This document shows positions 9,483 to 33,664 of a DNA stretch of 41,451 bases, one piece after another. Origin of the DNA: a virus; IMG/VR virus record IMGVR_UViG_3300031576_001290, positions 1-41,451 of that record. One strand, given 5' to 3'. A model generated the notes under the pieces. That model ran no database searches. It was not told the DNA's origin and saw nothing but the letters and a program-made list of their open reading frames with translations. A program made the translations under genes and the position numbers. The first letter of the stretch is position 1. Each line of letters starts with the position of its first letter.

Positions 9483-10417
9483 CAGCCCGTGCCCTCGGCG
9501 GGGGCGACGAATCGGAAGTCGTAGTCGCGGCGCAGCACGCCGGGCGGGAAGTCGATCCGGAGGTCATCGACGTGGGCCAGGCGCTGGTAGTGCCGGCCGG
9601 CGTTCGTGAGGTCGTCCGAGTCCGCCCACATGGCGAGGAAGCCCGTCCCGGTCTCGAGCCAGCGGACGAAGCGACGCACGGCGAGCTCGTCGTCTGAGCC
9701 GTGGAGCAGGTTCACGAGACGCACGTCGACGTCCGAGCGGACCTGGCGGACGCGCACGATCTCGGCGACGCCGTCGCCCTGGTTGATCGCGAGACCGGGG
9801 TCGGTGCGCGGGCGCCACTGTCGGAATCGCTTCTGGAGCTCGACGAGTCCGCCGCAGAAAACCCGATCCCACCAGGCGAAGGCACCAGACACGAATGGCT
9901 CGACGAGCTCGTAGCGCAGCGAGAGCTCGAGCCAGTCGCAGCTCGCGTGGACCTCCTGCGCGGTCCACTTGAGGAACCAGCCCGGGCCTGCGGTGACCCA
10001 GGACCGCGACGCCGGCGGCGTGAGGAGTGTTCCGCTGCCGATCGTCGCGGTCCCGCCCTGGTATTGCGCGAGCTTCAGGATCCCGTTCGCCATGGCCTCG
10101 GAGAGTCCGGGCCGGAAGGCCGCACCGGCCGCGAGCTCCCCGCCCTCGGCCTTCAGCACCGCGAGCACGTCCGCGAGCTGGAAGCGCTGGAGCGCGACGG
10201 CCTTGTTCCCGGCTGTCCCGTCGACGACGTGCTGCCGCATCGCGCGTGCCGACGGGATGCCGGGCCCCGCGCTGTGGAACACGTCCGCGACGACTTGCTG
10301 GGACGCGTTGACGCTCTGGCTCGTGTCCCAGCCGCTCGGTGCCGTGCCGCCGGCGTCTGACTCGAAGCTCGCGTTCACGAGCGGCGCCAGGCCGTAGAGC
10401 AGGATCGGCCGGCCCAT
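9482..10417 (-). CDS. Distal-tail-like minor tail protein with N-terminal CBM-like domain (311 aa)
   Basis: First gene after the tape measure, the usual place of the distal tail protein. The N-terminal half begins LVNASFESDAGGTAPSGW, which resembles the opening of family 4/9-type carbohydrate-binding modules (N-x-x-F-E...P-x-G-W). The C-terminal half (RLVNLLHGSDDELAVRRFVRW, RLAHVDDLRIDFPPG) is a mixed alpha/beta region without a known signature. Its start overlaps the tape measure stop by one base (TGATG). The next gene contains a similar carbohydrate-binding-like insert, so adjacent tail-tip proteins may share a glycan-binding theme. Assignment rests on position and the N-terminal pattern. 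Confidence 0.65.
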   Translation of the reverse strand: MGRPILLYGLAPLVNASFESDAGGTAPSGWDTSQSVNASQQVVADVFHSAGPGIPSARAMRQHVVDGTAGNKAVALQRFQLADVLAVLKAEGGELAAGAAFRPGLSEAMANGILKLAQYQGGTATIGSGTLLTPPASRSWVTAGPGWFLKWTAQEVHASCDWLELSLRYELVEPFVSGAFAWWDRVFCGGLVELQKRFRQWRPRTDPGLAINQGDGVAEIVRVRQVRSDVDVRLVNLLHGSDDELAVRRFVRWLETGTGFLAMWADSDDLTNAGRHYQRLAHVDDLRIDFPPGVLRRDYDFRFVAPAEGTG

Positions 10418-13400
10418 CAGCTGCGAGCCTCGGTCGGAAGCGCCCGGAGCACGCCGGCCTCGATCATGTCGTACAGGCGCTCGGCCACGGCCTCTACGAA
10501 CTCCCGCGGCACGCGCTCGGAGTAGATCGCGCCGAATTGCTGGTGCGTCACGTTCAGCGTGAGCTGGTGGTTCGCCCCGCCGTTGCGTCCGCGCAGGCCG
10601 AGAGCCTCGCCGGCGCGACGAGCCGCGGGACCCGACAGGGGAACGATCGCCTCGGGCCGCCCAAACTCACCGACGTTCACGACCTGCTCGCGATGCACGA
10701 CCGCACCCTCGGCGGCGCCTGGAACCGCGACGATCGACGTACCGAGCGCGGCGCCGGCGGCGGCTGAGGTAGCAGCACCAGCGGTCGCTACGCCCGTCGC
10801 GGCCGCGGCCGCAGCGGGAGCCGCCGGCGGGAAGATCGACGACCACCATGCGAACGTGTTCACGTAGACCGACGCCAGGCCCTTGGCGAGCTCGGCCGCG
10901 GCCTCGTGCGCGGTCGAGGCGACGCTGAGCTTCGAGACGATCAGGCGGCGGATCGCCCACTGGACGAGCAGGTTCACCGCGTCCGCGGCGAGCGACTTGC
11001 GCATCGCAGCGAAGCCCTCGGAGAGCTTGCGCTGGCCGGTGACAACCTGTCCCGCGAGCGCGCCGACCGATGCGATCCCGCCCTCGACGAACTGCGCCCA
11101 TGCTGTCCCGATCCCGTCGACGAACTCCTGGGAACGCACGTTCAGCACGCCGAAGAACTCGTCCCATTCCGTGAACTCGGGGGGCGTGAAGGAATTGCGG
11201 ACGCGCTCGAGCATGTCCTCGTCGAGCTGCTCCTCGTCGAACTCGAGGCCGATCTTGATCGGCTTGATTCGATCGGGCGTCGGGATTTCGACGTTCTCGA
11301 GCAGCTTTCCTAGTTCCTCCGGGATCGTCTGGCCCGCGCGCACGAGGCCGGTTGTGAGGTCCTCGATCTGCTTGCCGAAGGCCTTGTACACGATCGTGGC
11401 GTCGAGCCCCTGCGCGTTCGCGATCGCCATCGCGCGGTTGAAGTCGGTGAGCAGTGCGTCCGCCATCTTCTGCGTCGCGAACCCGCTCTTCGCGAGCGCG
11501 GCCTCGAGCAGCTCGGTCGCGGCCTTCAGCTCCTCCGCGCTGAGCTTGGCCTTTTCGTTTGCATCGCCGAGTTCCTTCGCTGCGTCCTTCTGGGAGCCGC
11601 GGAAGAGCTCGAGCGCGCGCTTCAGGACCTGCGCCGCGCTCCCGCCCTGCGCGGCTGCATCCGAGAACGCCTGGCGGAACCGCACGAGGTCCTGCTCGGA
11701 CATGTCGTTCACCAGGCGGCGGAGCGTCCCGAGCTGCGCCTGGAGGTCGTTGACCGTCTGGAACAGGGCGCTGGCGTCGGCGACGATCTTCACCTTGCCC
11801 GCGGCCGTCGCCATGATGCGGAAGCTCTCGAGCTCGCGCGCTGCGGCTTCCAGTCCACCCTCGAAGGTGATCTCGCCCTTGATCCGTAGACGCTCGCGGA
11901 GGAATTCCACGGTCCTCGGGTCGAACCGCAGCTCGCCAACGTCGATACCCTTCCCCGCGAGCTGCTCGAGCAGCTGGCCGATCTGGTCGGCCTGCTGGCC
12001 GAAGTTCTCTAGGCGCCGCGTCGCCCCCTCGACGTCGTGACCGAGCGCACGCTCGAACAAGTTGGTCATGACGGCGTCGAGGCCGGTCACCTCGGAGATC
12101 GCCCTCGTGAGGGCGAAGGACAGGCCCCCGACCGCTCCGACGAGGCCAAGGATCCCGAGCTTCTGGCCGACGGTCGCCGCGGTGAAGAGGTGCGCGGCCG
12201 ACGCGCTCGACGCCATCGCGATCGCGACCTTGTCGAAGCCGAGAGCCAGCGCGATCGCGCCCGAGGCGCCGCTCGCCAGGACCGGCAGCATCGCGCCGAA
12301 CGTTCGGATCACCTGCCCGCCGATGAACACGACCGGCCCGAGCGCCGCGGCGAAGGCGCCCATCCGGATCAGCGAATCCTGGACGGGCTCGGGGAGCTTG
12401 CCGAAGTGCGTCGCGAGCCGGGCCACGAACCGAGTCAGATCGACGACCGCAGGGGCCAGGTTCTCGCCCATCTCGATCGCGGCATCCCGGATCTGATTCT
12501 TCGCGATCTGCAGCTGCGAGGCCGTGGTCTCCATCCGCTTGCCGAACTCGATCGCGAGCGCGTTGTTCACTTTCCACGCGGTCTCGGCCGTGTCGAGGGA
12601 GCCGACCATCGTGTCGTTCGCCGATGCGAGACGCAGGAGCGCGTCCCGAACCCGCACGTTCTCGAGCTCGAGCCCCTCGAGCACGGTGAAGACGTCGCCG
12701 CCGGCCTTGGCCGTGTCGTCGAGCCCCTTGATGAACGCGACGATCGCGCCCTTCGCGTCCTGCTCGAATAGCTTCGAGAAGTCGGCGACCGATAGGCCTG
12801 CGACCTTTGCGAAGTCGTCGAGCAGATCGCCGCCCGAGCGCACCTGCTTGGCGATCTCGACGAACACGCGGGAGAGCGCGGTGCCGCCGGACTCGGCCTC
12901 GATCCCGACCGACGCGAGCGCGCCGGCGAAGCCGAACACCTGTGCCTCGGTCAGCCCGATCTGCTTTCCTGCGCCGGCGAGGCGCAGGCCCATTTCCACG
13001 ATCTCGGCCTCGGTCGCGGCGAGCTTGTTGCCGAGGTCGACGATCGTCGAGCCGAGCCGCTCCGCCTCCTGCTGCGGCGTGCGCATGATGTTGGCGAAGC
13101 GGGCGAGGCCGTTTGCGGCTTCCTCGGCCGAGAGATTCGTCGTCGCGCCGATCTGGGCCATGACGCGCGTGAACTCGACGATGTTCTCTTTCTCGATCCC
13201 GAGTTGGCCCGCGGCCTCGGCGATCCGGTTCAGGTCGTCGACGTTGATCGGGATCGCCTTCGGGCCCGCGGCGAGCTGGCGGATCCCCTGGGAGAGCTGC
13301 TTCAGCTCCTCGTCCGTAGCGTCGACGGTCTTCCGCACGCCGGCAAACGAGCTCTCGAAGTCGATCGCGGCCTTCGCCGCACCGAAACCGATGGCTGCGA

Positions 13401-13608
13401 TGGGGGCGGAGACGAGGAGGCCGAAGCGCGTCCCGAACTCGGTCAGCCTGCCGCCGAGCCGCTCGAGGTTCTGGCCGACGCGGGCGAAGTTCTCCGCGGC
13501 GACGCCGGCGAGCTTGTCCGTCTCAGCCCGCACCGCGCCCGAGAACTTCCGCACCGTCGCGGTGCCCCGGTCGTCGACGGCGAGTACGATCTCGACGAAT
13601 CGAGGCAC
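10417..13608 (-). CDS. Tape measure protein (1063 aa)
   Basis: Sets tail length and is threaded through the tail tube during assembly. Residues of about 90-310 match the minor tail/tape-measure core (ELKQLSQGIRQLA, DLNRIAEAAGQLGI, MAQIGATTNLSAEEAANG, ALASVGIEAESGGTALSRVF). Long helical stretches follow (VNDLQAQLGTLRRLVNDMSE), with hydrophobic patches around residues 400-500 that could cross the inner membrane during injection. The end is Ala/Gly-rich and then GEFGRPEAIVPL, a phrase frequently conserved near tape-measure C-termini. It is the longest gene between the tail tube and the tail tip, as expected. It starts with GTG just after the chaperone stop, with a GAGGAG site inside the chaperone end. 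The encoded length suggests a tail of moderate length. Confidence 0.93.
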   Translation of the reverse strand: MPRFVEIVLAVDDRGTATVRKFSGAVRAETDKLAGVAAENFARVGQNLERLGGRLTEFGTRFGLLVSAPIAAIGFGAAKAAIDFESSFAGVRKTVDATDEELKQLSQGIRQLAAGPKAIPINVDDLNRIAEAAGQLGIEKENIVEFTRVMAQIGATTNLSAEEAANGLARFANIMRTPQQEAERLGSTIVDLGNKLAATEAEIVEMGLRLAGAGKQIGLTEAQVFGFAGALASVGIEAESGGTALSRVFVEIAKQVRSGGDLLDDFAKVAGLSVADFSKLFEQDAKGAIVAFIKGLDDTAKAGGDVFTVLEGLELENVRVRDALLRLASANDTMVGSLDTAETAWKVNNALAIEFGKRMETTASQLQIAKNQIRDAAIEMGENLAPAVVDLTRFVARLATHFGKLPEPVQDSLIRMGAFAAALGPVVFIGGQVIRTFGAMLPVLASGASGAIALALGFDKVAIAMASSASAAHLFTAATVGQKLGILGLVGAVGGLSFALTRAISEVTGLDAVMTNLFERALGHDVEGATRRLENFGQQADQIGQLLEQLAGKGIDVGELRFDPRTVEFLRERLRIKGEITFEGGLEAAARELESFRIMATAAGKVKIVADASALFQTVNDLQAQLGTLRRLVNDMSEQDLVRFRQAFSDAAAQGGSAAQVLKRALELFRGSQKDAAKELGDANEKAKLSAEELKAATELLEAALAKSGFATQKMADALLTDFNRAMAIANAQGLDATIVYKAFGKQIEDLTTGLVRAGQTIPEELGKLLENVEIPTPDRIKPIKIGLEFDEEQLDEDMLERVRNSFTPPEFTEWDEFFGVLNVRSQEFVDGIGTAWAQFVEGGIASVGALAGQVVTGQRKLSEGFAAMRKSLAADAVNLLVQWAIRRLIVSKLSVASTAHEAAAELAKGLASVYVNTFAWWSSIFPPAAPAAAAAATGVATAGAATSAAAGAALGTSIVAVPGAAEGAVVHREQVVNVGEFGRPEAIVPLSGPAARRAGEALGLRGRNGGANHQLTLNVTHQQFGAIYSERVPREFVEAVAERLYDMIEAGVLRALPTEARS

Positions 13609-13612
13609 TCGC

Positions 13613-14379
13613 TCACTCCTCGCCGCGCGCCTCCCTGCGCGCGGTTGCGTAGCCGGTTCCGATCGCGTTCAGCTGGCGAAGGAGAATCCGCCCGTCGTCG
13701 CGCGTGAGCCCCCCGCAGAAGGCCTCGACCGCGAGATCCTGGAGCCCGAGCTCCTGCACGCCGGGGGCCGCGAGCTCGTGGTACAGGAGCCACGCGCGCT
13801 CCGTTCCGGGAGGGAGCGCGTTCTTCTGCCGCAGCTCGTAGAGACCGCACTTCATGCAGTCGGCCTCTCGGGCTGGGCCGAGCCCTCCTTCTGCTCGGAG
13901 CTCGGCGCAGCTTCGGCAGTCGCTTGGTCCGCGCCAGGTTCTCCAGAAATGCGCCTCGGCCCGCGCGTACTCCTGGAGCCCGCCCCCCCCATCTGGGCCC
14001 GCCTGCGCCCTTCGGCCTCCGCCATCAGGTAGCCGACGAGTGCGTTCGCGATCGCCGGCGTGACCGTGCCGTCCGTCAGGTACTCCGAACGGAACGCGAC
14101 GGGCTCACCCGTGGGCGAGAACACGTTCTCCCAGCCCACGACGTAGTCGCGCGCGAACTGGTGCAGGAAGTCGCGCCAGGCGCGAGCGCCCTCGCCCTCG
14201 GCCCTCTGCCCGGTCGGCACGCGGAGGATGAGCTCGAAATCCGGCTGCCGCAGGATGAACACGGCTACCGTCGCCTCGGGCGCAGGCTGATCCCCGATCT
14301 CGCGCAGGAGGTACGGGGTATCCGGGTCGTCCTGCTCTTCGAGCACGACCCGGATCGGTTTCGCTGGCTCGATGATCAT
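13613..14379 (-). CDS. Tail assembly chaperone frameshift fusion (gpG-T type, predicted 255 aa)
   Basis: Joins the upstream chaperone to the downstream reading frame by a predicted -1 ribosomal frameshift at the run of eight G (minus strand, 13990-13983). After residue 132 the -1 frame continues without a stop: GLQEYARAEAHFWRTWRG, a Cys4 motif (C154, C157, C174, C177), then LYELRQKNALPPG to the stop at 13613. Opening only the last 80 residues at the ATG at 13855 would start translation inside the second CxxC pair and destroy the zinc-like motif. Tail-chaperone frameshifting between the tail tube and tape measure genes is a conserved feature of long-tailed phages (lambda G/GT). A permanent frame error at the homopolymer is the main alternative. 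Confidence 0.7.
13852..14379 (-). CDS. Tail assembly chaperone, unshifted product (gpG-like, 175 aa)
   Basis: Located between the tail tube and tape measure genes, the position of lambda-G-type chaperones that coat the tape measure before tube polymerisation. Residues 1-125 look folded (MIIEPAKPIRVVLEEQ, FILRQPDFELILRVPTGQ, VTPAIANALVGYLMAEAEG). The last 43 residues after the G-run are Gly/Ala/Ser/Pro/Glu-rich and probably disordered, as expected when the conserved continuation lies in the -1 frame. The ATG at 14379 follows a GGAGGGGG site. The stop overlaps the ATG at 13855 (ATGA). Identification is by position and the frameshift arrangement, not by a clear family motif. Confidence 0.7.
   Translation of the reverse strand: MIIEPAKPIRVVLEEQDDPDTPYLLREIGDQPAPEATVAVFILRQPDFELILRVPTGQRAEGEGARAWRDFLHQFARDYVVGWENVFSPTGEPVAFRSEYLTDGTVTPAIANALVGYLMAEAEGRRRAQMGGAGSRSTRGPRRISGEPGADQATAEAAPSSEQKEGSAQPERPTA
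13983..13990 (-). other. Putative -1 ribosomal frameshift slippery site (G8)
   Basis: Eight consecutive G on the minus strand, read in frame as ATG GGG GGG GCG. Both tRNAs can re-pair after slipping back one base. From here the -1 frame stays open for 123 codons and completes a Cys4 motif. The site is at the canonical position in the tail chaperone gene. Confidence 0.6.
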
Positions 14380-14395: not shown

Positions 14396-15502
14396 TCAAG
14401 CCTGGTCGACCGAGTTGCCGTTGAACATGTAGGCGCGGAACGGCGCTCCGCCCGCGGTGACCCAGCTCCAGTCGGTACCGTTCGGGAGCCGGCCCGCCTC
14501 GGGCGTGGTCACCGAGAACGTGATCTCGACCGGGACCTTGCTCCCGGGCGAGGGTGCGTTCGTCGGCGCGTTCATGATCGTCATCGCCGGGAAGTCGAAC
14601 CGCATCAGATACGGGAGCGGGGGCGCGGACGTCGGGATCGTCGGGCCGGTCCAGATCAGCTGCGCTTTGTACAGCTTCTGACGCCGCCCCGTCTGCGGGA
14701 TCGACGCGGCCTTGATCAACGCGTCGACGGCCGCGGTGTACTGCGGGAACGTCAGCGTCACGTCGGCCGTCGGCATGCCGTTCGTGTCGGGCTCGTCGAT
14801 CTCGCCGTTCGACCCGGAAACGACGTCGCCGGCGATGTTGCGATTGATCGAGACCCGGCAGTCCGAGACCTTCAGGTCATCCGCGCCGTCGAGGTTGCCC
14901 TCGGCCCCCGTGACCTCGGTCGCGCGAACGGTGAGCGCGCTGAAGAGTGCGATCAGGCCGTCCTTCGGGATCGTGATCGCGCCGAACTGCGCCGCGCCGT
15001 TCACGGGCGCATTCCGCTCACAGCGATTGAACAGGCCGGTCAGCGTGCCCTGCAGCTTCCCGCCCTCGTGCCCGAGCTCGAGCTGCGAGTACTTGAAGGA
15101 CGGATACTCGTGCACGTTCGTTCCGAGCGCGCCGATCCCCTTGTCGAAGGCGAGGGTACCGAAGAGGCCGTTATTCGACGGCTGGAACCGCATGTCGTGC
15201 TCGAACACGATCCCGGCCTGGTTGATCACGACGGTATCGGCGCCCATCAGCAGTGCGAGATGGCGCTCGAAGCCCTCGAGGCGCGGCGCCATGACGATCG
15301 CGCCCTCGTGCTCCTCGATGTTGCCCTGGTAGTTCCCGCCCGAAAGGGAGTCGCCGACGTTGTCGTCCTTGATCGTCGCCGGGATCCCGGGGGGCAGGCT
15401 CTCCGAGATCAACTTGATCAAATCGCCGGCGCCGGCGGCGACGGCGGTGCCCCACGTTGCGCCCTTCTTGAAACACACCTTCCAGCCCGTGGTTCCCGCC
15501 AT
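14396..15502 (-). CDS. Major tail tube protein (368 aa)
   Basis: Predicted subunit of the tail tube. The sequence is dominated by beta-strand patterns and turns, with tail-tube-like phrases: LEGFERHLALLMG, SQLELGHEGGKLQGTLTG, VTLTFPQYTAAVDALIKAA, VPVEITFSV. It lies directly upstream of the chaperone pair and tape measure, and downstream of neck/terminator genes, which is the standard order. The ATG has a strong AGGAGGG site 8 bp upstream. It is larger than a minimal tube protein (about 200-250 aa), so it may contain an extra decorating domain. Confidence comes mainly from the order and beta-rich pattern. Confidence 0.8.
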   Translation of the reverse strand: MAGTTGWKVCFKKGATWGTAVAAGAGDLIKLISESLPPGIPATIKDDNVGDSLSGGNYQGNIEEHEGAIVMAPRLEGFERHLALLMGADTVVINQAGIVFEHDMRFQPSNNGLFGTLAFDKGIGALGTNVHEYPSFKYSQLELGHEGGKLQGTLTGLFNRCERNAPVNGAAQFGAITIPKDGLIALFSALTVRATEVTGAEGNLDGADDLKVSDCRVSINRNIAGDVVSGSNGEIDEPDTNGMPTADVTLTFPQYTAAVDALIKAASIPQTGRRQKLYKAQLIWTGPTIPTSAPPLPYLMRFDFPAMTIMNAPTNAPSPGSKVPVEITFSVTTPEAGRLPNGTDWSWVTAGGAPFRAYMFNGNSVDQA

Positions 15503-15514
15503 CGAAGTACCCTC

Positions 15515-16054
15515 CTATCGCGCGACTTCTTCGGAGTAGTGAACGAGCAGCTCGACCGCGTAGCCCTTCACGCCGCTCTGCAGCTGCGCACCGCGAACGG
15601 GGCCGAGCATCCGCGGCATCTGCTCGAGGTAACCCATGTATCCGTCCCCGATCCCGAGCGCCAGGTCCTCGAGCTCACACGTACGCGTGCCGAGCGCGTC
15701 GAGGATCTCCTCGGCCGCACGCCTCAGCGCGATCGCCTGGTCACGCTCGTCGTTGTGGCCGTAGAAGCCGACGATGCGCACCTGACCGTGGTACTCGTGC
15801 GAGCCGTTCGTGAAGGGCGAGGCGGCGACCTGACCCTCGAGGAGCCAGAAGCGCACCACGGGGCCGAAGTCCTCGGCCTCGGTGTCGATCACGCCTGCTG
15901 TGTCGACCACGACTACGGCGCCATCCGCACGCAGCTGCTCTTCCGTCGACCAGCGGCGCTCGGATATGAACACGGGCCCGAGGTTCGGCGGGTCGACCGC
16001 GTCGAGCTTGGCCTTCAGGTTCGCGAGGAACTGGCGGAGATGGTTGTCGGCCAT
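15515..16054 (-). CDS. Tail terminator/completion-like protein (179 aa)
   Basis: Position immediately before the tail tube gene is where siphoviruses encode the tail terminator. N-terminal helix (LRQFLANLKAKLDAV), central beta region (VVVVDTAGVIDTEAEDFG, GQVRIVGFYGHNDERDQAI), a helix (LRRAAEEILDALG) and a final strand (VELLVHYSEEVAR) agree with the small alpha/beta fold of that family. No diagnostic motif is visible. The start shares a base with the upstream stop (TGATG). Confidence 0.6.
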   Translation of the reverse strand: MADNHLRQFLANLKAKLDAVDPPNLGPVFISERRWSTEEQLRADGAVVVVDTAGVIDTEAEDFGPVVRFWLLEGQVAASPFTNGSHEYHGQVRIVGFYGHNDERDQAIALRRAAEEILDALGTRTCELEDLALGIGDGYMGYLEQMPRMLGPVRGAQLQSGVKGYAVELLVHYSEEVAR

Positions 16055-16596
16055 CAGCGCCCCTCGATCGTCTGCCGGAAAGAATCCGCGAGCGCCTCGA
16101 CCAGGTCCTGGAGCTCGCGCTCGGCCGTCTCCTTCGCGCGCTCGAACACGCCTCGAGGCGGGAGGCCGCGGCGCGAGATCGCGGCGCGGATCCGGAACGC
16201 CGCCGATTTCACGGCCTCGCGTCCCGTCTTCCCCGTCCAGCTGAGATCGAGCTGCCCGCGTTGCGCACGCAGCTGGACCCAGCGCTCGATCGGGCCCGGG
16301 GGCGGCCAGCGGGCGCCGGCGCGGCGGCCCGTGTCGACGATCGCGGCGTGCGGGATGGGGGAGAAGATCGCGTCGCGGATCTCGATCCCGTCTGGCGAGG
16401 GGCGGATGGACGGTCCCTCGGTGAAGATCCCGTTCGCTAGCTCGCCGGTGTAGAGCTTCTCCGCGGCCGCGATCCGGCCCTCGCGCATCCCGGCGCCCGC
16501 GGCGACCGCTACGCCCTCGACGAGCGCCTGGTCGAGCTCGGAGGCGGCGACGCCGGCGTCGTCCGCGAGCGCGCGCAGCTGGGACACGTCGATCAA
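16054..16596 (-). CDS. Neck/minor tail protein, HK97-gp10-like (180 aa)
   Basis: Begins at a TTG that overlaps the upstream stop (TTGA). The middle contains ELANGIFTEGPSIRPS...IEIRDAIFSPIPHAAIVDTG, a layout seen in HK97-gp10-like head-tail joining proteins, where a strand-turn-strand is followed by YA.xvE/D-G. Both ends are helical; the C-terminal helix is FERAKETAERELQDLVEALAD. Its neighbours are the connector and the terminator. Likely role is head-tail joining; the family assignment is tentative. Confidence 0.55.
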   Translation of the reverse strand: MIDVSQLRALADDAGVAASELDQALVEGVAVAAGAGMREGRIAAAEKLYTGELANGIFTEGPSIRPSPDGIEIRDAIFSPIPHAAIVDTGRRAGARWPPPGPIERWVQLRAQRGQLDLSWTGKTGREAVKSAAFRIRAAISRRGLPPRGVFERAKETAERELQDLVEALADSFRQTIEGR

Positions 16597-17327
16597 TGCG
16601 ACACGCGCGGGAAGCCGTAGCGATCGCGGCTCCGGTAGTCGACCGACGTGCCCGAGGCCGGCGCGAACTCAGTCGGGACGAACCGCTCGAGCGCCTGCTT
16701 CCGCAGGGACTTCTCGTTGTCGCGCCAGCGGCGGTCGATCGTGTCGTAGTCGACCTGATCGAGGCCCATGCTCTCGTTCTTCAGGTCGGAGGCCGAGCGC
16801 GCGACCCAGCCCGCGAGGTTCGCGAGCACGAGCAGCAGGAACCCCTCGACGTCTCCGTCGGGCACGGTCGTGCCGGGCGTCGCGTCCGTTCCGTCGAGGG
16901 TCTCGATCTGCTGCGGGCGCGTCCACGTGATCGAGAGCGTCTCGGACGTGCCGGGCGGCCGCAGGAGCCACAGCACCTCGTCGCCCGCGGCGTCGATCCG
17001 GACCTCCCACTCCTCGGCCTCGAGTTCGCGGCGGTGCTCGTCGTCGGTGTCCGGATCCTCGAGGATCTCGAGCGCTTGGACGCGCGACGTACGCGGCAGC
17101 CACACGGGCTCGGCGGAGAGGAGTGTCTTCAGGACCCAGCGCCGGGTCTGACCGTCCCCGGCGACGCGCTTCACGAGCTCACGCGGCCGGTGCGACGAGT
17201 ACTCGTCGAGCGCCGAACGGACCGCGGCGTCCTGCGCTTCTTCGGTGGGCTGGAGCTTCAGCGACTCGATCTTGCCGAGCCGCGTGATGGCCTTGGTCCT
17301 GACCTCTGCGAGCTTCCCGAGCGCCAT
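16593..17327 (-). CDS. Head-tail connector/adaptor-like protein (244 aa)
   Basis: First gene after the capsid gene. The helical N-terminus (LGKLAEVRTKAITRLGKIE, QDAAVRSALDEYSSHRPRE) is typical of portal adaptors. A beta region (WEVRIDAAGDEVLWLLRPPG) is followed by more helices (GFLLLVLANLAGWVARSASD, DTIDRRWRDNEKSLRKQALE). The ATG is preceded by GGGAG at 7 bp. Adaptors usually have about 110-200 residues, so this one is somewhat large. The call depends on gene order and helical content. Confidence 0.55.
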   Translation of the reverse strand: MALGKLAEVRTKAITRLGKIESLKLQPTEEAQDAAVRSALDEYSSHRPRELVKRVAGDGQTRRWVLKTLLSAEPVWLPRTSRVQALEILEDPDTDDEHRRELEAEEWEVRIDAAGDEVLWLLRPPGTSETLSITWTRPQQIETLDGTDATPGTTVPDGDVEGFLLLVLANLAGWVARSASDLKNESMGLDQVDYDTIDRRWRDNEKSLRKQALERFVPTEFAPASGTSVDYRSRDRYGFPRVSH

Positions 17328-17431: not shown

Positions 17432-19306
17432 TCAAGGCGACTGGATCAGGTACAACCCGCGGTAGTCGACGACGACGCCGTCGTCGTGAACGTGCCGCAC
17501 CTTGTACGTCACCCGGTCGTTCGTGAAGAACGTCCCGACGCGGTCGAGGTCCTGGATGAAGATCTCGGGCTCCTCGCGCCCCTGGAGGAATCCGACCTCG
17601 ATCACCTCGGTCTCGTCCGGCGAGGCCGCGACGATCACGTCGTTGTCGCGGTTGGCCACGCTGTCGAACTCGTGGACCTCGAAGAGGCTCAGGCCGTGCT
17701 TCGAGCGGATCACGTTGGCCTTCCGCTCGCTCTCCCGCGTGATCGTCTTGGCGGTACCCGCCGCCTGGTTCGTGTCCGTGTCGACCAGGTTCGGCTTGCC
17801 GTCCGAGAACACGTCCGCGTACACCGCGTCGTAGTTCAGCGGGCCGCAGAAGATGTTCCGCGACGTCACGACGCCGGCCTCGCGCGCGTCGATGTCCTTC
17901 TGCCGCGTCATCGCGCGCCTGGCGATCGAGAGCTCGGTGAACGAGTAGGCCACCGTCCCGAGGTTGGCGTGCGTGGCGTGGAAGATCGCGACGCCGTCGC
18001 CGCCATAGTTCCCGTTGTTGAGGAGCTTGCCCCAGACCGCGACGTTCAGCGTGCGCTCCGCAGCGCGCGCCATCCGGCCGGGGATCGAGCGGAACGTGCG
18101 CGTGTCGTCGTTGACGATCGACTCCCAGCTGATCGGGCCGAGTCCGCCGTGCTTGACGATCGACGCCGTGACCTCGTCCTCGGTCGGCAGTCCGAGATCC
18201 ACGTACGCCGCGTCCTGGGCGACCGTGGGCAGGTTCGCGAACTCACCGAACCGCACGATCGAGCGGCTCTTGAAGTCGTTCACCGGCGTGGTGCGCGCGA
18301 CCATCCGCCACAGGTGCGGGAGCATCGCGTAGTCGCGCATCATGCGCTTGTTGATCACGTTCGAGAGCAGCGCGACGAACCCGGTCGTCAGGATCGTCGC
18401 CTCGAGGCCGGCGACCGAGAACGCCGGCAGGAACGGGCGCAGGTCCTCGCGCTCCCAGTCGATCGACTCGAGGATGTCGGACGCGCGCCGGCGGCTGCGG
18501 ACGTAGCCGAGCCCCTCGCACAGCATGTCGCCCGTGATCACCTGGTACGCCTGCTTGATCCCATGAAACGCGGGGACCTTGACCTCGCTGTCCCCGTCCT
18601 TCACGATCCCGAAGCGCTCGCCCGAGATCAGCGCCTCGAGTGCGGCCTCGACGCGATCGCCCGTGGTGTAGGGCTGGCCGAAGCGCGGGCGCGGCTTCTT
18701 CTCTTCGCCCTCGAGGAGCGAGGTGATCCGCTCGGTCCCGCCGAGACCCTTCGTCAGGCCCTCGAGGAACTCCTTGATCGATCCGCGGCTGATCGTGCCC
18801 GCGGACTCGAGCATCGCGGCGAGCTGTTTGCCTGCGAACTCCCGCAGCTTCTTCGGCAGCTTGGAGGATTCGAGGACCGCATCGATCAGCTCGGTACCGC
18901 GCTCGAGCTCGAGCTTCGCCATCCGCGCGTCGTGGCGCTTCTTCCACGCCTCGAGGCCGCGGACGCGATGCTGGACGCGGGAGTCGTCGTCCGACGACTC
19001 GTCGTCCTCCTCGTCGTCCTCGTCCTCGACCAGGTCCTCGTCGGCGCGCTTCTTCGTCTTGCGCTTGTCGGGGCGCGGCTCGGGCGGATCGAACTTCGCC
19101 AGCGACTCGAGGACCTGGACGAGCGCGTCGCCTTCGAGGTCCTCGGGCAGGCCGAGGGCCTCGACGACCGCTTCGCGCAGGTCGTCGTGCTCGTCCTCGA
19201 GCAACGGCTTCGCTGAGTCGATCGGCTTCTCGGGGAACAGGGCCTCGAGCTGCGCGCGGCTCTTCTCCGGTACGAGCCGGAGCAGTCTCTGAAGCAGGTT
19301 CTTCAT
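17432..19306 (-). CDS. Nested in-frame scaffold-capsid product from internal start (624 aa, predicted)
   Basis: Inside the fusion gene, an ATG at 19306 (residue 199, MKNLLQRLLRLVPEKSR) is preceded by GGAGGA with about 5 nt spacing, a near-ideal ribosome binding site. It falls precisely at the junction between protease-like and scaffold-like regions. Independent initiation would give abundant scaffold-capsid subunits and few protease-containing copies. This resembles the logic of lambda C/Nu3, where a nested start yields scaffold. Predicted from sequence only. Confidence 0.45.
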   Translation of the reverse strand: MKNLLQRLLRLVPEKSRAQLEALFPEKPIDSAKPLLEDEHDDLREAVVEALGLPEDLEGDALVQVLESLAKFDPPEPRPDKRKTKKRADEDLVEDEDDEEDDESSDDDSRVQHRVRGLEAWKKRHDARMAKLELERGTELIDAVLESSKLPKKLREFAGKQLAAMLESAGTISRGSIKEFLEGLTKGLGGTERITSLLEGEEKKPRPRFGQPYTTGDRVEAALEALISGERFGIVKDGDSEVKVPAFHGIKQAYQVITGDMLCEGLGYVRSRRRASDILESIDWEREDLRPFLPAFSVAGLEATILTTGFVALLSNVINKRMMRDYAMLPHLWRMVARTTPVNDFKSRSIVRFGEFANLPTVAQDAAYVDLGLPTEDEVTASIVKHGGLGPISWESIVNDDTRTFRSIPGRMARAAERTLNVAVWGKLLNNGNYGGDGVAIFHATHANLGTVAYSFTELSIARRAMTRQKDIDAREAGVVTSRNIFCGPLNYDAVYADVFSDGKPNLVDTDTNQAAGTAKTITRESERKANVIRSKHGLSLFEVHEFDSVANRDNDVIVAASPDETEVIEVGFLQGREEPEIFIQDLDRVGTFFTNDRVTYKVRHVHDDGVVVDYRGLYLIQSP

Positions 19307-19900
19307 GGGCTTCCTCCGTGCGAGCGCTTCGAGGACCGGGACGATCCGTCCCCCGGCGCTGGGGAATGACACAACGTCGTAGCCCACGACCCGCGATACC
19401 GTCGTCGGCTCGCGGTCCCCGTTGTCGAGGGGCCTGCACTGGAATCCGTCGATCGGCAGATGAATCGAAAGACCGAGAGCGCGAGCGAGGCGCCGCGAGG
19501 CCTCGAGGAGCTCCGAGAGCAGTCCGCCACGATTCGCCGACGGCTCGAGATCGGCGACGACCCGGGCTTTGCCCGCCGCGTCCTCGACCCGCGGGTTCCG
19601 CACGGTCGCGACCTGGGCGTCACGCAAATGCTCGGGCAGCAAGCGCTGGATCGCTGGCGGGAGACCGCGGCGCAGGGCCTCCCAGTGGTGCAGGTAGCGC
19701 TTCGATCCGTCGGGCGAGAAGTCGTACACGTTGACGGGCGCGCCCTCGGACGCGGCGGCGATCTGCTCGAGCACGGGCTTCGTCCACACGTTCCCGTTCT
19801 TCGAGCGGCCCTCCTGGATCAGGACCGCGCGGAAGCGCCCGCCCGACTCGAGCACGCTCGAGCCCGGCAGCTGCTCCCGCATCGTGCGCTTGCGTCGCAA
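17432..19900 (-). CDS. Prohead protease-scaffold-major capsid fusion protein (822 aa)
   Basis: One polypeptide with three regions. Residues 1-198 resemble a capsid maturation serine protease: RFRAVLIQEGRSKNGNVWT, candidate catalytic His71/His72, Ser145 in ALGLSIHLP, and VVGYDVVSFPSAG. Residues of about 199-400 are charged and helical, with an acidic block at 285-308, as expected for a scaffold. From about 400 to the end is a gpT/HK97-like capsid subunit (RMARAAERTLNVAVWGKLLN, AIFHATHANLGT, VTYKVRHVHDDG). Protease/capsid fusions are known in some phages. The start is a TTG with AAGGA upstream; the first ATG (19882) lacks such a site. An internal ATG at residue 199 has a strong SD. The protease would trim its own scaffold during maturation. 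Confidence 0.85.
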   Translation of the reverse strand: MRRKRTMREQLPGSSVLESGGRFRAVLIQEGRSKNGNVWTKPVLEQIAAASEGAPVNVYDFSPDGSKRYLHHWEALRRGLPPAIQRLLPEHLRDAQVATVRNPRVEDAAGKARVVADLEPSANRGGLLSELLEASRRLARALGLSIHLPIDGFQCRPLDNGDREPTTVSRVVGYDVVSFPSAGGRIVPVLEALARRKPMKNLLQRLLRLVPEKSRAQLEALFPEKPIDSAKPLLEDEHDDLREAVVEALGLPEDLEGDALVQVLESLAKFDPPEPRPDKRKTKKRADEDLVEDEDDEEDDESSDDDSRVQHRVRGLEAWKKRHDARMAKLELERGTELIDAVLESSKLPKKLREFAGKQLAAMLESAGTISRGSIKEFLEGLTKGLGGTERITSLLEGEEKKPRPRFGQPYTTGDRVEAALEALISGERFGIVKDGDSEVKVPAFHGIKQAYQVITGDMLCEGLGYVRSRRRASDILESIDWEREDLRPFLPAFSVAGLEATILTTGFVALLSNVINKRMMRDYAMLPHLWRMVARTTPVNDFKSRSIVRFGEFANLPTVAQDAAYVDLGLPTEDEVTASIVKHGGLGPISWESIVNDDTRTFRSIPGRMARAAERTLNVAVWGKLLNNGNYGGDGVAIFHATHANLGTVAYSFTELSIARRAMTRQKDIDAREAGVVTSRNIFCGPLNYDAVYADVFSDGKPNLVDTDTNQAAGTAKTITRESERKANVIRSKHGLSLFEVHEFDSVANRDNDVIVAASPDETEVIEVGFLQGREEPEIFIQDLDRVGTFFTNDRVTYKVRHVHDDGVVVDYRGLYLIQSP

Positions 19901-19903
19901 CGG

Positions 19904-20347
19904 TCAGTCCTTCTCGGTCTTCTCGCCCTTCGCCTTCGGCTCGACGTAGGGAACCTCGATCGAGGTCCCGTCCTGGAAGCTGATCGAGACGAACGGCTCG
20001 AGCGGCTCGCCCTCCGCGTCGTGCTCCTCGAGGTCACGCGTACGCGTGAAGCGCTGGACCGTCGTCACGTGGTGGAGCTGGAGCTTCACCTGCTTCGCCT
20101 TCGTGATCGTCCGGTTTTTATCGGCATCGCGCGTCTTGTCGTACTCGGTGATCTCGAGCCGGTCGAAGTCCACGGTCCCCGCATGGCGGATCGACCGTGG
20201 CTTGACCTTGCCCTTCAGCACCTGGTCGACGAGCGCGCGCAGCGCGTCGCGCACGGGACCCGCGGCGATCCGCGCGTCTGCGACCACGCGCTCGTGCACG
20301 CCGACGAGGCGCGTCGTGTAGCCGGTGTCGAGTAGGACGAGATTCAT
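19904..20347 (-). CDS. Hypothetical head-module protein (147 aa)
   Basis: Not recognised. It starts MNLVLLDTGYTTRLV with an ATGA overlap onto the MuF gene and ends 3 bp before the protease-capsid fusion. The N-terminal half has helical stretches (VRDALRALVDQVLKG). The C-terminal half alternates strands (KQVKLQLHHVTTVQRFTRT, FVSISFQDGTSIEVPYVEP) and ends in a charged Lys/Glu tail. The gene lies between MuF and the protease, so it may be a small head or scaffold accessory. An immunity role for the neighbouring MuF-metalloprotease is conceivable from adjacency, but nothing in the sequence supports it directly. Confidence 0.7.
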   Translation of the reverse strand: MNLVLLDTGYTTRLVGVHERVVADARIAAGPVRDALRALVDQVLKGKVKPRSIRHAGTVDFDRLEITEYDKTRDADKNRTITKAKQVKLQLHHVTTVQRFTRTRDLEEHDAEGEPLEPFVSISFQDGTSIEVPYVEPKAKGEKTEKD

Positions 20348-30672: not shown

Positions 30673-31205
30673 CGGTCGCCCCATGCAGTTATGCCGCCGG
30701 CTGCGTCGCCAGATCCCATTCCACGAGGACGCCTGTTCTGTGCCTGCTCGGATGCTGTGGCCCACCGGCAATTGCCAGGCTCGTAGTTGCCGTCGTTTTC
30801 GATCCGGTCGATCGAATGGCGGGACGACGGACGGGGGCCCATGTCAGCGAGGAAGTTCTCGAACGTGCCCCACCGCGCGCAGACGCGGATGCCCCGAGCG
30901 CCGTAGTAGCGGAAAGACAGCTCGTTGGGGTTCGAGCAGCGGTTTCTCATCCCGCACCAGATGCGGTACTCGTTGGTCTTTCGGCCCACGCGGGCTTGTC
31001 CGTGCCGAAGCCGGCACACACCCGAGAGCCTCAAGCATCGACACGACCTGGCCCTGCCGGATTTCAGGAGCTGTCCGGAGATGACCTTCTGGTTTCCGCA
31101 GTCGCAGAGACAGAGCCACCGTGACCCAGTGGAATCAGAGACGGCGGACCGCGCCAGCACGACGAGCATCCCGAAGCGCTGCCCCTCGAGCGATAGAGGC
31201 CTCAT
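30669..31205 (-). CDS. HNH homing-type endonuclease with N-terminal DNA-recognition domain (178 aa)
   Basis: Mobile-element endonuclease. The N-terminal region (EGQRFGMLVVLARSA, WLCLCDCGNQKVISG, LLKSGRARSCRCL) is the Cys-containing recognition module common in free-standing HNH nucleases. The C-terminal half (EYRIWCGMRNRCSNPNEL, YYGARGIRVCARW, FENFLADMGPRPSSRHSIDR, IENDGNYEPGNCRW) holds the HNH fold, with His/Asp in HSIDRIENDG and Asn/Cys in the final pair. The ATG overlaps the sbcC stop (ATGA). The gene separates sbcC from a leftover copy of its C-terminal tail. Codon use and GC are slightly lower than in neighbours. Confidence 0.88.
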   Translation of the reverse strand: MRPLSLEGQRFGMLVVLARSAVSDSTGSRWLCLCDCGNQKVISGQLLKSGRARSCRCLRLSGVCRLRHGQARVGRKTNEYRIWCGMRNRCSNPNELSFRYYGARGIRVCARWGTFENFLADMGPRPSSRHSIDRIENDGNYEPGNCRWATASEQAQNRRPRGMGSGDAAGGITAWGDR

Positions 31206-33664
31206 GGTGCGACACCGGCCTCGGTCAGCACGCGCCCGCCCTGTACAACGAGACGCGCGTCGGCCGCCTCCCAGATTTCCCGCTGGTGGGCCACGAAGAT
31301 CACCTGGAACGCGTGAGAGAGCTGGCGTGCGCGACGCAGCATCCGGACATACGCCTGTGCGTTCTCTGGGTCGAGTGCGCCTGCCGTTTCGTCTCTCCAC
31401 CAGGTGGCGTAACGGACGCCGAGCTTCCTCGACTGCAGAATGCCGATTGCCAGCGACAGGGCTTCACCGACCACGACACGCTCCCCACCGCTGAGCGCCT
31501 CGACTGATCTCTCTTGCCCCCGATCGAAGCACTTCAGGTCGAACGCCTCCGAGTATTCACCGTCGCGCTTCTCGCGTAGTGTCTCGAGCGTGACGGAGAA
31601 CCGCGGTCCGTAGCAGCTAGCCAGGAGCTCGTTGACGAGCGCGGTGACCTCGGGCGCCGCGGCGTCGATCTCGAGCGCCTGGACGCCGTCCTTGCCGAGC
31701 CCGCGTTCGAGCAGCTGCCAGTCGCCGAGCTCGGTCGCGGCTGCGGCCTCCTTGACCACCAGGTCCTCGAGCTCCTGCGCCTTGCGCGCGAGCTGCTCGA
31801 CGCGCTCCCGGGCTCGGGCCTCGGCGGCCACGGCAGCACGCTCGAGGATCTCGGTCGCCCGGAGTCTCTCGAACGCGGCCCCCTGCGCCTTTGTGAGCTC
31901 GGTGACGTCGCCGGCGTCGCGCCTCGCGGCCTCCCAGGCCTCGCGCGCGGCGTCCTCCCGCGTCGCCGCTGCGGAGATCTCCGCGGCGTGCATGGCGAGG
32001 TGGTCCGTGGTCACGCTCCGGAGCGCCTCGAGGTCATGGTCGAGCCTGGCTCGCTCGGCCGCGGCCTGCTGGACGTCCTTCCGCGCGGCCTCGAGCATCT
32101 CCTCGAGCGAGTCGTCGGCGGCATTCCGCTGCTCGGCGATCGCGGCGAGCTGCTCGCCGAGCGCGTCGCCGCTCTCGGCCCGGGCCAACGCGGCCTGCCC
32201 CGTGGCCACGGCCTGCTCGGCCGCCCGCAGGTCTGGCGGCGCGCCGAGCTCGGCGCGCGCTTTCTGCGCGGCCTCGCGGATGCGCACGGTCTCTCGGTAC
32301 GGCCCGGCGTCAGGTGGCTCCGCCTCGACCAGGTCGATGCGGTCCTGCGCGGTGCGGGCATCCGCGAGCAGCGGGCAGGTGCCGGCGAGATCCTCGGGGT
32401 GGACCTCGCTCTGTTCGCCCGCGGAGTGCCCAGCGTCGAGGCGCGCGTACCACGCGCCGGCCTGCGTGCACGGCACGCTCGCGAGCCGCGCGGCCTGCTG
32501 CCGCAGCCGGCTCAAGTCCGCGTCCCGGCGGTCGGCCGCGGCCTGGTATGCGCGCGAGGCCTCGCGTTCCGCCTCCTGCGCACCCCGTAGCGCCGCGTCG
32601 GCGTCGGCGCATGCGACTACACCCCCGTTCGCCTCATCGCGTGCGGCCTGGGCAGCGGCGAGCCCCGCGAGGGCCTCCTCGAGGACCGGCAGCGCTCCGA
32701 GCTGCGCGTGCAGCCGCTCGGCCCGGTCTTCGAGTGCGTGGACGGCCGCCGCGTGCCTCCGTCTGGCCGCGGGCTCCAGCTCCTCGACCTTCCGCGCGTC
32801 GAGGAAACGGATCCGCTCCGCGTGCTCCTTCTCCGCCGCCTCGAGGCGCTGCGCGGCCTGCGTCCGCGCGATGTGTAGCTGCACGGCCTCCCGCTTGGCC
32901 GCGGCCAGTGCGTCGTAGAGCGCAGCCGCGCGCTCACCAGCCGAGCGTGCGCGCTCGAGTACATTCGAGGAGGCAGCCTCAGCCTGCCGGGCGGATTCCA
33001 ACGTTGCCCCGGCCAAGGCCACCGCCTCGATCTCCTGGGCCAGCTCGGCGCGTGCGGCGTCGAGCGGCGCGATCTCGTCCCGGACCCGCGCGGCGAGCGA
33101 TCGCGCCCCCGCGAGCGCCTGCTCGGCGCTCGTGCGCTCTGCACGCGAGCGGCCCGCGAGCTGCTCGAGCAGCCCGAGGCCGAGCAGCTCACAGAACAGC
33201 GCTTTCCGATCACCTTTGCGGAGCGTGAGGAAGCTTCCGCCCTTGTCCTGCGCGGCGAAGACCGAGGCGAGCAGCAGATCGGGCGAGCCGAAGCGCCGCA
33301 GGACCTTCGCGTCGAACGCTGCAGCCTTCCCGTCGGTCACGGGCGCGCCGTCGACGAGGATGTAGCCATCGGTCGTCCGGCGCTCGGCGTCGATCGCCAG
33401 GCGCACGGAGATCTCCGCGCCCGCGCCGTCGAGGAACACCGCCTCGACGTAGGCGTCGGTCCCGTGACAGTGCTCGTAGAGAGAGCCCGCGCGCGTCGCG
33501 AAGCGCTTGAAGAGCGCGGCGAATGGGGCCTCGAGCAGTGTGCTCTTCCCCGCGCCGTTCGGGCCGACGACGGCCACGAGGCCCTCGCCGAGCGCGTCGA
33601 AGTCGATCGACACCGGCTGCGCGTACGTCGTCAGGCCGCGGAAGGAGAGCCGGAGGAGTTTCAT
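31202..33664 (-). CDS. SbcC/Rad50-like ATPase (820 aa)
   Basis: SMC-type partner of the SbcD-like nuclease encoded two genes upstream. Walker A is GPNGAGKST (34-42). The signature motif is ALSGGER (723-729). Walker B is degenerate (YATWWRDETAGALDPE, with D758-E759). The H-loop is H793. Between about 170 and 690 lie long heptad-like Ala/Glu/Arg helices, with a zinc-hook-like pair of cysteines near residues 398 and 431 (VPCTQ and GTCPLL). It starts with ATG overlapping the upstream stop. The C-terminal tail appears to have been replaced during HNH insertion. Phage SbcCD-type enzymes process ends during recombination and replication. Confidence 0.9.
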   Translation of the reverse strand: MKLLRLSFRGLTTYAQPVSIDFDALGEGLVAVVGPNGAGKSTLLEAPFAALFKRFATRAGSLYEHCHGTDAYVEAVFLDGAGAEISVRLAIDAERRTTDGYILVDGAPVTDGKAAAFDAKVLRRFGSPDLLLASVFAAQDKGGSFLTLRKGDRKALFCELLGLGLLEQLAGRSRAERTSAEQALAGARSLAARVRDEIAPLDAARAELAQEIEAVALAGATLESARQAEAASSNVLERARSAGERAAALYDALAAAKREAVQLHIARTQAAQRLEAAEKEHAERIRFLDARKVEELEPAARRRHAAAVHALEDRAERLHAQLGALPVLEEALAGLAAAQAARDEANGGVVACADADAALRGAQEAEREASRAYQAAADRRDADLSRLRQQAARLASVPCTQAGAWYARLDAGHSAGEQSEVHPEDLAGTCPLLADARTAQDRIDLVEAEPPDAGPYRETVRIREAAQKARAELGAPPDLRAAEQAVATGQAALARAESGDALGEQLAAIAEQRNAADDSLEEMLEAARKDVQQAAAERARLDHDLEALRSVTTDHLAMHAAEISAAATREDAAREAWEAARRDAGDVTELTKAQGAAFERLRATEILERAAVAAEARARERVEQLARKAQELEDLVVKEAAAATELGDWQLLERGLGKDGVQALEIDAAAPEVTALVNELLASCYGPRFSVTLETLREKRDGEYSEAFDLKCFDRGQERSVEALSGGERVVVGEALSLAIGILQSRKLGVRYATWWRDETAGALDPENAQAYVRMLRRARQLSHAFQVIFVAHQREIWEAADARLVVQGGRVLTEAGVAP

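Follow-up and report, generated by a model that had tools for sequence, protein, structure and literature searches.

The tail gene region of the window

The DNA analysed here, referred to throughout as the window, is the whole of IMG/VR virus record IMGVR_UViG_3300031576_001290, 41,451 bases in length. On its minus strand an open reading frame assigned to a gpG-like tail assembly chaperone lies downstream of the tail tube gene and directly upstream of the tape measure gene (Table 1), a placement that the initial annotation had proposed from the letters alone and that the Pfam and PHROG matches on either side now bear out. The last 42 residues of this frame, beyond the putative slip site, form a low-complexity tail, as that annotation had also described for the unshifted product. 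The chaperone and its putative extension match none of the library families, those of gpG and gpT included, and a profile search of the frame-0 protein at E values up to 1 gave no match to PHROG 313.

The reading frames change their relation at a run of eight G residues at 13990-13983. Frame 0 crosses the run as CAG ATG GGG GGG GCG, with the ATG codon beginning at 13992; the first G of the heptamer is the last base of this codon, a tandem-slip phase that fits a -1 shift, and the eighth G, at 13983, falls past the heptamer. After a shift the reading would be GGC GGG CTC CAG and onwards for 123 codons to a stop at 13615-13613, giving a predicted fusion of about 255 aa. The extension reads GGLQEYARAEAHFWRTWRGPSDCRSCAELRAEGGLGPAREADCMKCGLYEL... 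and contains two cysteine pairs as CRSC-x16-CMKC. The second pair is encoded by C-ATG-AAG-TGC at 13858-13847, where the ATG for the methionine of CMKC is also the start of an 80-aa frame that conventional annotation calls as a separate gene. Run, codon context, open -1 frame, CxxC-x16-CxxC pattern and the straddling of the second CxxC over this ATG had all been reported in the initial annotation, and each was confirmed on the sequence.

Three other frames of the window deserve mention. An 822-aa frame with a TTG start (17432-19900, minus strand) has matches to head maturation protease families as well as to major head protein families and, judged from these matches, is apparently a protease-capsid fusion. 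A 502-codon frame on the plus strand (12524-14032) runs antisense to the chaperone and to the first part of the tape measure gene, and most likely owes its existence to high GC content. An 820-aa protein (31202-33664, minus strand) matches SbcC-like nuclease subunits.

Table 1. Positions of the tail chaperone features in the window and in two relatives (L084 and L137)
Feature	Position	Strand	Basis or remark
Tail tube protein	14396..15502	-	Pfam Phage_tube_2, E 1e-6; 40% identity to L084 counterpart
Frame-0 ORF, predicted tail assembly chaperone (gpG-like), 175 aa	13852..14379	-	Position, codon usage
Putative slippery heptamer G_GGG_GGG	13984..13990	-	Sole in-frame X_XXY_YYZ heptamer of the overlap
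Predicted -1 frame extension (gpT-like), 123 aa	13613..13984	-	38% identity to L084 extension, E about 1e-20
Predicted hairpin CUCCAG...CUGGAG, possible stimulator	13941..13978	-	About 5-6 nt past the heptamer
Cys4 motif C-x2-C-x16-C-x2-C	13847..13918	-	Four Cys invariant in window/L084/L137 alignment
80-aa ORF, separate call in conventional annotation	13613..13855	-	Start differs in relatives
Tail tape measure protein	10417..13608	-	PHROG 13339, E 5.6e-117; Pfam PhageMin_Tail
L084 frame-0 chaperone	19677-20186
L084 heptamer tcG_GGA_AAA, classical slip site	20069-20075		Only one in the overlap
L137 heptamer gcA_AAA_AAC	9914-9920		Sole in-frame heptamer; at extension start

Two relatives with the same arrangement

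Relatives of this tail module are scarce. Viral contigs scanned with the chaperone, the extension and the tail tube protein one at a time yielded no relatives, profiles of the extension and the tail tube protein run against viral contigs and bacterial genomes returned L084 again and nothing else, no credible match to the extension was found among isolated phages and plasmids, and a search with the Terminase_6N family was negative. Three candidates were discarded: a chaperone match in contig L002 that lies inside a tail tube gene and is due to chance, a match in Arthrobacter phage Pureglobe5 that falls among replication genes and is spurious, and an equally spurious match to a DNA ligase.

The closer relative, IMGVR_UViG_3300009788_000298 (L084), was reached through the capsid gene and is syntenic with the window, with identities of 50% for the capsid protein (MCP), 40% for the tail tube protein and 40-44% for three neighbouring genes. 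Its extension is likewise encoded in the -1 frame. Similarity between the two extensions begins within a codon or two of the heptamers, in L084 immediately past its G_GGA_AAA, and the heptamer positions in the two genomes are one codon apart. All four cysteines are kept, with a central spacer of 21 residues against 16 in the window, while the ATG that would start a separate gene is placed elsewhere, at residue 42, before the second cysteine pair. The segment of the -1 frame upstream of the window ATG is conserved between the two (18 of 41 residues identical, z 12, a score reached in none of 2,000 shuffles), as is the 80-aa part (z 22), whereas the body of the frame-0 chaperone shows no similarity (z 0.1), so that the extension is better conserved than the chaperone that precedes it. 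The frame-0 tail scores z 3 in low-complexity sequence, and the frame-0 part of the window has no detectable similarity to known chaperones either. In L084 the window gene at 15515-16054 has two homologues, at 13314-13841 and 17982-18473, the latter joined onto the end of a repeat-rich frame of 1,115 aa.

The second relative, IMGVR_UViG_3300035698_002824 (L137), was reached with a pattern describing the tape measure N-terminus; it is more distant and again syntenic. It shares 52% identity with the window over 31 aa at the tape measure N-terminus, 28% in the MCP and 26% in the homologue of the window gene at 16593-17327 (E 4e-14). Its frame-0 protein is a tail assembly chaperone of PHROG 313 (E 3.6e-18) and the positional counterpart of the window frame-0 frame. 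The -1 extension, beginning KKLADFARG, carries C-x2-C-x13-C-x2-C, and its first ATG, GTG or TTG comes no earlier than residue 61, which lies past all four cysteines, so that the Cys4 part of L137 cannot arise from a separate start of that kind. Pairwise similarity of this extension to those of the window and L084 is not significant; L137 therefore supports the arrangement by position and pattern rather than by sequence, and L084 is the one relative whose extension is significantly similar to that of the window.

These comparisons bear on how the initial annotation proposed that its reading be checked. Alignment of homologues finds the Cys4 segment conserved in the -1 frame of L084 behind a canonical heptamer at the same place, and the pattern that would have spoken against a fusion, a conserved upstream start for the 80-aa region, is missing: the ATG is moved in L084 and absent before residue 61 in L137. 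The proposal of a programmed -1 frameshift of the lambda G/GT type is thus supported by both relatives.

Putative slip site, codon usage and downstream structure

Several features of the site carry little weight when taken singly. The run of eight G is unique in the window, but about 1.7 such runs are expected by chance and the run by itself is not significant; similarly, of start points taken within real window genes, 73% also have a -1 frame with 43 open codons, so the length of the open frame is in itself no evidence. What does exceed chance is the presence of a sole in-frame heptamer in the overlap together with a switch in codon usage at the run. In-frame X_XXY_YYZ heptamers number nine in 8,004 codons, G_GGG_GGG is the only in-phase seven-base homopolymer among the genes tested, and the overlaps of the window, L084 and L137 each hold exactly one slippery heptamer. 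Immediately ahead of the run, codon usage in frame 0 scores +14 bits per 30 codons, and beyond the run this score turns negative; over the 80-aa part frame -1 reaches +34 bits, and the overlap between the two is intermediate, which is the expectation for two overlapping reading frames.

A predicted hairpin starts 5-7 nt after the heptamer in all three genomes, with differing sequences. That of the window is modest, with z -1.3 over 100 nt and -2.05 for the core 35 nt, ranking within the most stable 3-5% of nearby segments at 35-45 nt and 25% at 60 nt. The hairpins of the relatives are strong: in L084 the value is z -1.8 over 100 nt, within 0.3-1% of nearby segments, and in L137 it is z -3.7 over 100 nt, among the most stable 0.03-0.4% at 45-60 nt.

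Origin of the predicted fusion

A frame change at a homopolymer of eight invites explanations other than ribosomal slippage. Homopolymers are error-prone, the window is a metagenome contig and one extra G would join the frames, so that a wrong G count from assembly or sequencing could conceal a gene with one continuous frame. Against this, the frames of two contigs from other metagenomes stand in the same -1 relation at sites with no run of eight, and the third-position GC of the -1 frame in the overlap is 0.74, compared with about 0.90 in ordinary genes, unlike a plain single-frame gene. The same two sites, GGGAAAA in L084 and AAAAAAC in L137, bear on the idea that RNA polymerase slips on the run to produce mixed mRNAs, some with an extra G, and that the fusion arises from transcription. 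Programmed transcriptional slippage typically involves homopolymers of at least eight (PMC3711429) and the window run is exactly eight; however, the characteristic runs are of A or T (PMC3711429), and the sites of the relatives have the form of classical tandem-tRNA heptamers and lie in the phase that such a slip requires, a phase that the window run shares. Because the slip sites of the relatives are not runs of eight, both explanations are unlikely, polymerase slippage being improbable and a miscounted G more improbable still.

The remaining alternative keeps two separate genes, with the 80-aa frame translated from the ATG at 13855 and coupled to the frame-0 stop. The ATG overlaps this stop as ATGA, an arrangement to be expected of translational coupling as well, and a weak GAGAGG stands eight bases upstream. 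The -1 frame is nevertheless conserved ahead of this ATG, over a segment that includes the first cysteine pair and one cysteine of the second, and the start itself is not conserved, L137 lacking any start codon through the Cys4 region. Two independent genes are for these reasons very hard to credit, although some separate translation of the 80-aa frame may occur alongside the fusion.

We prefer to read the locus as a tail assembly chaperone gene, carried by an uncultivated tailed phage, that gives two products, as with gpG and gpGT of lambda, through a -1 slip of the ribosome, and we place the probability of this reading at roughly 0.92. That the slip is ribosomal rather than transcriptional we infer from the sites of the relatives, which are tandem-slip heptamers without a run of eight. 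Most ribosomes would stay in frame 0 and yield the 175-aa chaperone, while a minority, with two Gly-tRNAs on GGG_GGG, would slip back one base on G_GGG_GGG, probably aided by the hairpin just past the heptamer, and continue into the fusion of about 255 aa with its additional domain of four cysteines. In lambda, slippage at a low rate in the -1 direction produces gpGT; both gpG and the G part of gpGT attach to the tape measure protein, and the partner of the T part is the tail tube protein (PMC5009743). By analogy, the frame-0 part in the window would form a coat on the tape measure protein, and subunits of the tail tube would be brought in by the extension.

The cysteine motif

The four cysteines persist through central spacers of 16 (window), 21 (L084) and 13 residues (L137), and the second knuckle, CMKCGLY or CNKCGLY, resembles the CNACGLY of GATA fingers, with matches that are not significant (E 0.15-0.42). 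An AlphaFold model of the extension has a mean pLDDT of 72, falling to about 50 in the cysteine region. Structure comparison of this model with viral structures found nothing significant, and with solved structures only GATA fingers below threshold and unrelated chains. No paper tying the frameshift products of tail chaperones to zinc or to a Cys4 domain was found among titles and abstracts. We offer as a tentative suggestion, somewhat doubtful as it stands, that the extension is a metal-binding T domain, either a zinc ribbon or a knuckle of the GATA type, which several tail chaperone lineages have acquired or retained and which makes recruitment of the tube zinc-dependent. Were this true, only the minority protein made by frameshifting would bring the zinc module on which tail tube recruitment depends. 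In this genome and in similar phages, gene-calling programs would cut the Cys4 domain in two, and the four-cysteine feature of the extension is therefore easily missed.

Comparison with known tail chaperones

Two aspects of the locus had been called less familiar in the initial annotation, and both prove less unusual than it suggested. A survey of SEA-PHAGES tail chaperones with PRFect includes a six-base homopolymer motif among its backward slip sites, and its three-three motif takes all four bases at every position (PMC10885494). With six-base homopolymer sites already catalogued for tail chaperones, a site of pure G is not new in kind. Cys4 extensions are likewise present in other tail chaperone lineages: in a hand-picked, non-random sample, 9 of the 27 -1 extensions listed upstream of a tape-measure-like frame carry CxxC...CxxC, and seven of these nine belong to one group with mostly CCCTTTN sites.

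Two further phages of the comparison appear to contain frameshifts that their records do not annotate. In Streptomyces phage ZL12 (L140, GQ919031.1, positions 1462-2372) pZL12.53c and pZL12.52c are split, and a G_GGA_AAA at 1998 gives access to a -1 extension that has a Cys-rich segment and precedes the tape measure gene. Microcystis phage Mwe-JY26 (L143, PP438418.1, positions 1953-2743) likely has an unannotated -1 frameshift at GGGAAAC, at 2360 at the end of the chaperone frame, with a strong hairpin 7 nt downstream and an extension of 127 aa that is without a Cys4 motif.

The locus is well supported as a new example of the known tail chaperone frameshift, ordinary in kind, that extends this conserved device to a phage lineage that has hardly any relatives in the databases. 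The letters of the heptamer differ among L084, the window and L137 (GGGAAAA, GGGGGGG and AAAAAAC respectively), with its position and the Cys4 extension retained. As in lambda G/GT, the gene precedes that of the tape measure protein, holds a tandem-slip heptamer and has a downstream frame ending just ahead of the tape measure gene; in contrast to lambda, whose slip site is G_GGA_AAG, the window has the homopolymer G_GGG_GGG and a Cys4 motif in its extension. PHROG 313, which comprises T5-like tape measure chaperones and their relatives, counts the L137 counterpart as a member and has a profile of 258 positions, similar in length to the window fusion, although the window protein itself does not match it. 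The Cys-rich extensions of other tail chaperones (contigs L006, L014, L031, L033-L035 and L039, and the isolated phages ZL12 and Arthrobacter phage MidnightRain) share with the window cysteine pairs in the -1 frame before the tape measure gene, but differ in their mostly CCCTTTN sites and in the surrounding sequence CPxCGTRxxEWD...CxGC, with slightly altered cysteine spacing in ZL12 and MidnightRain, of which the latter has its frameshift annotated as a join and the former is annotated as two genes.
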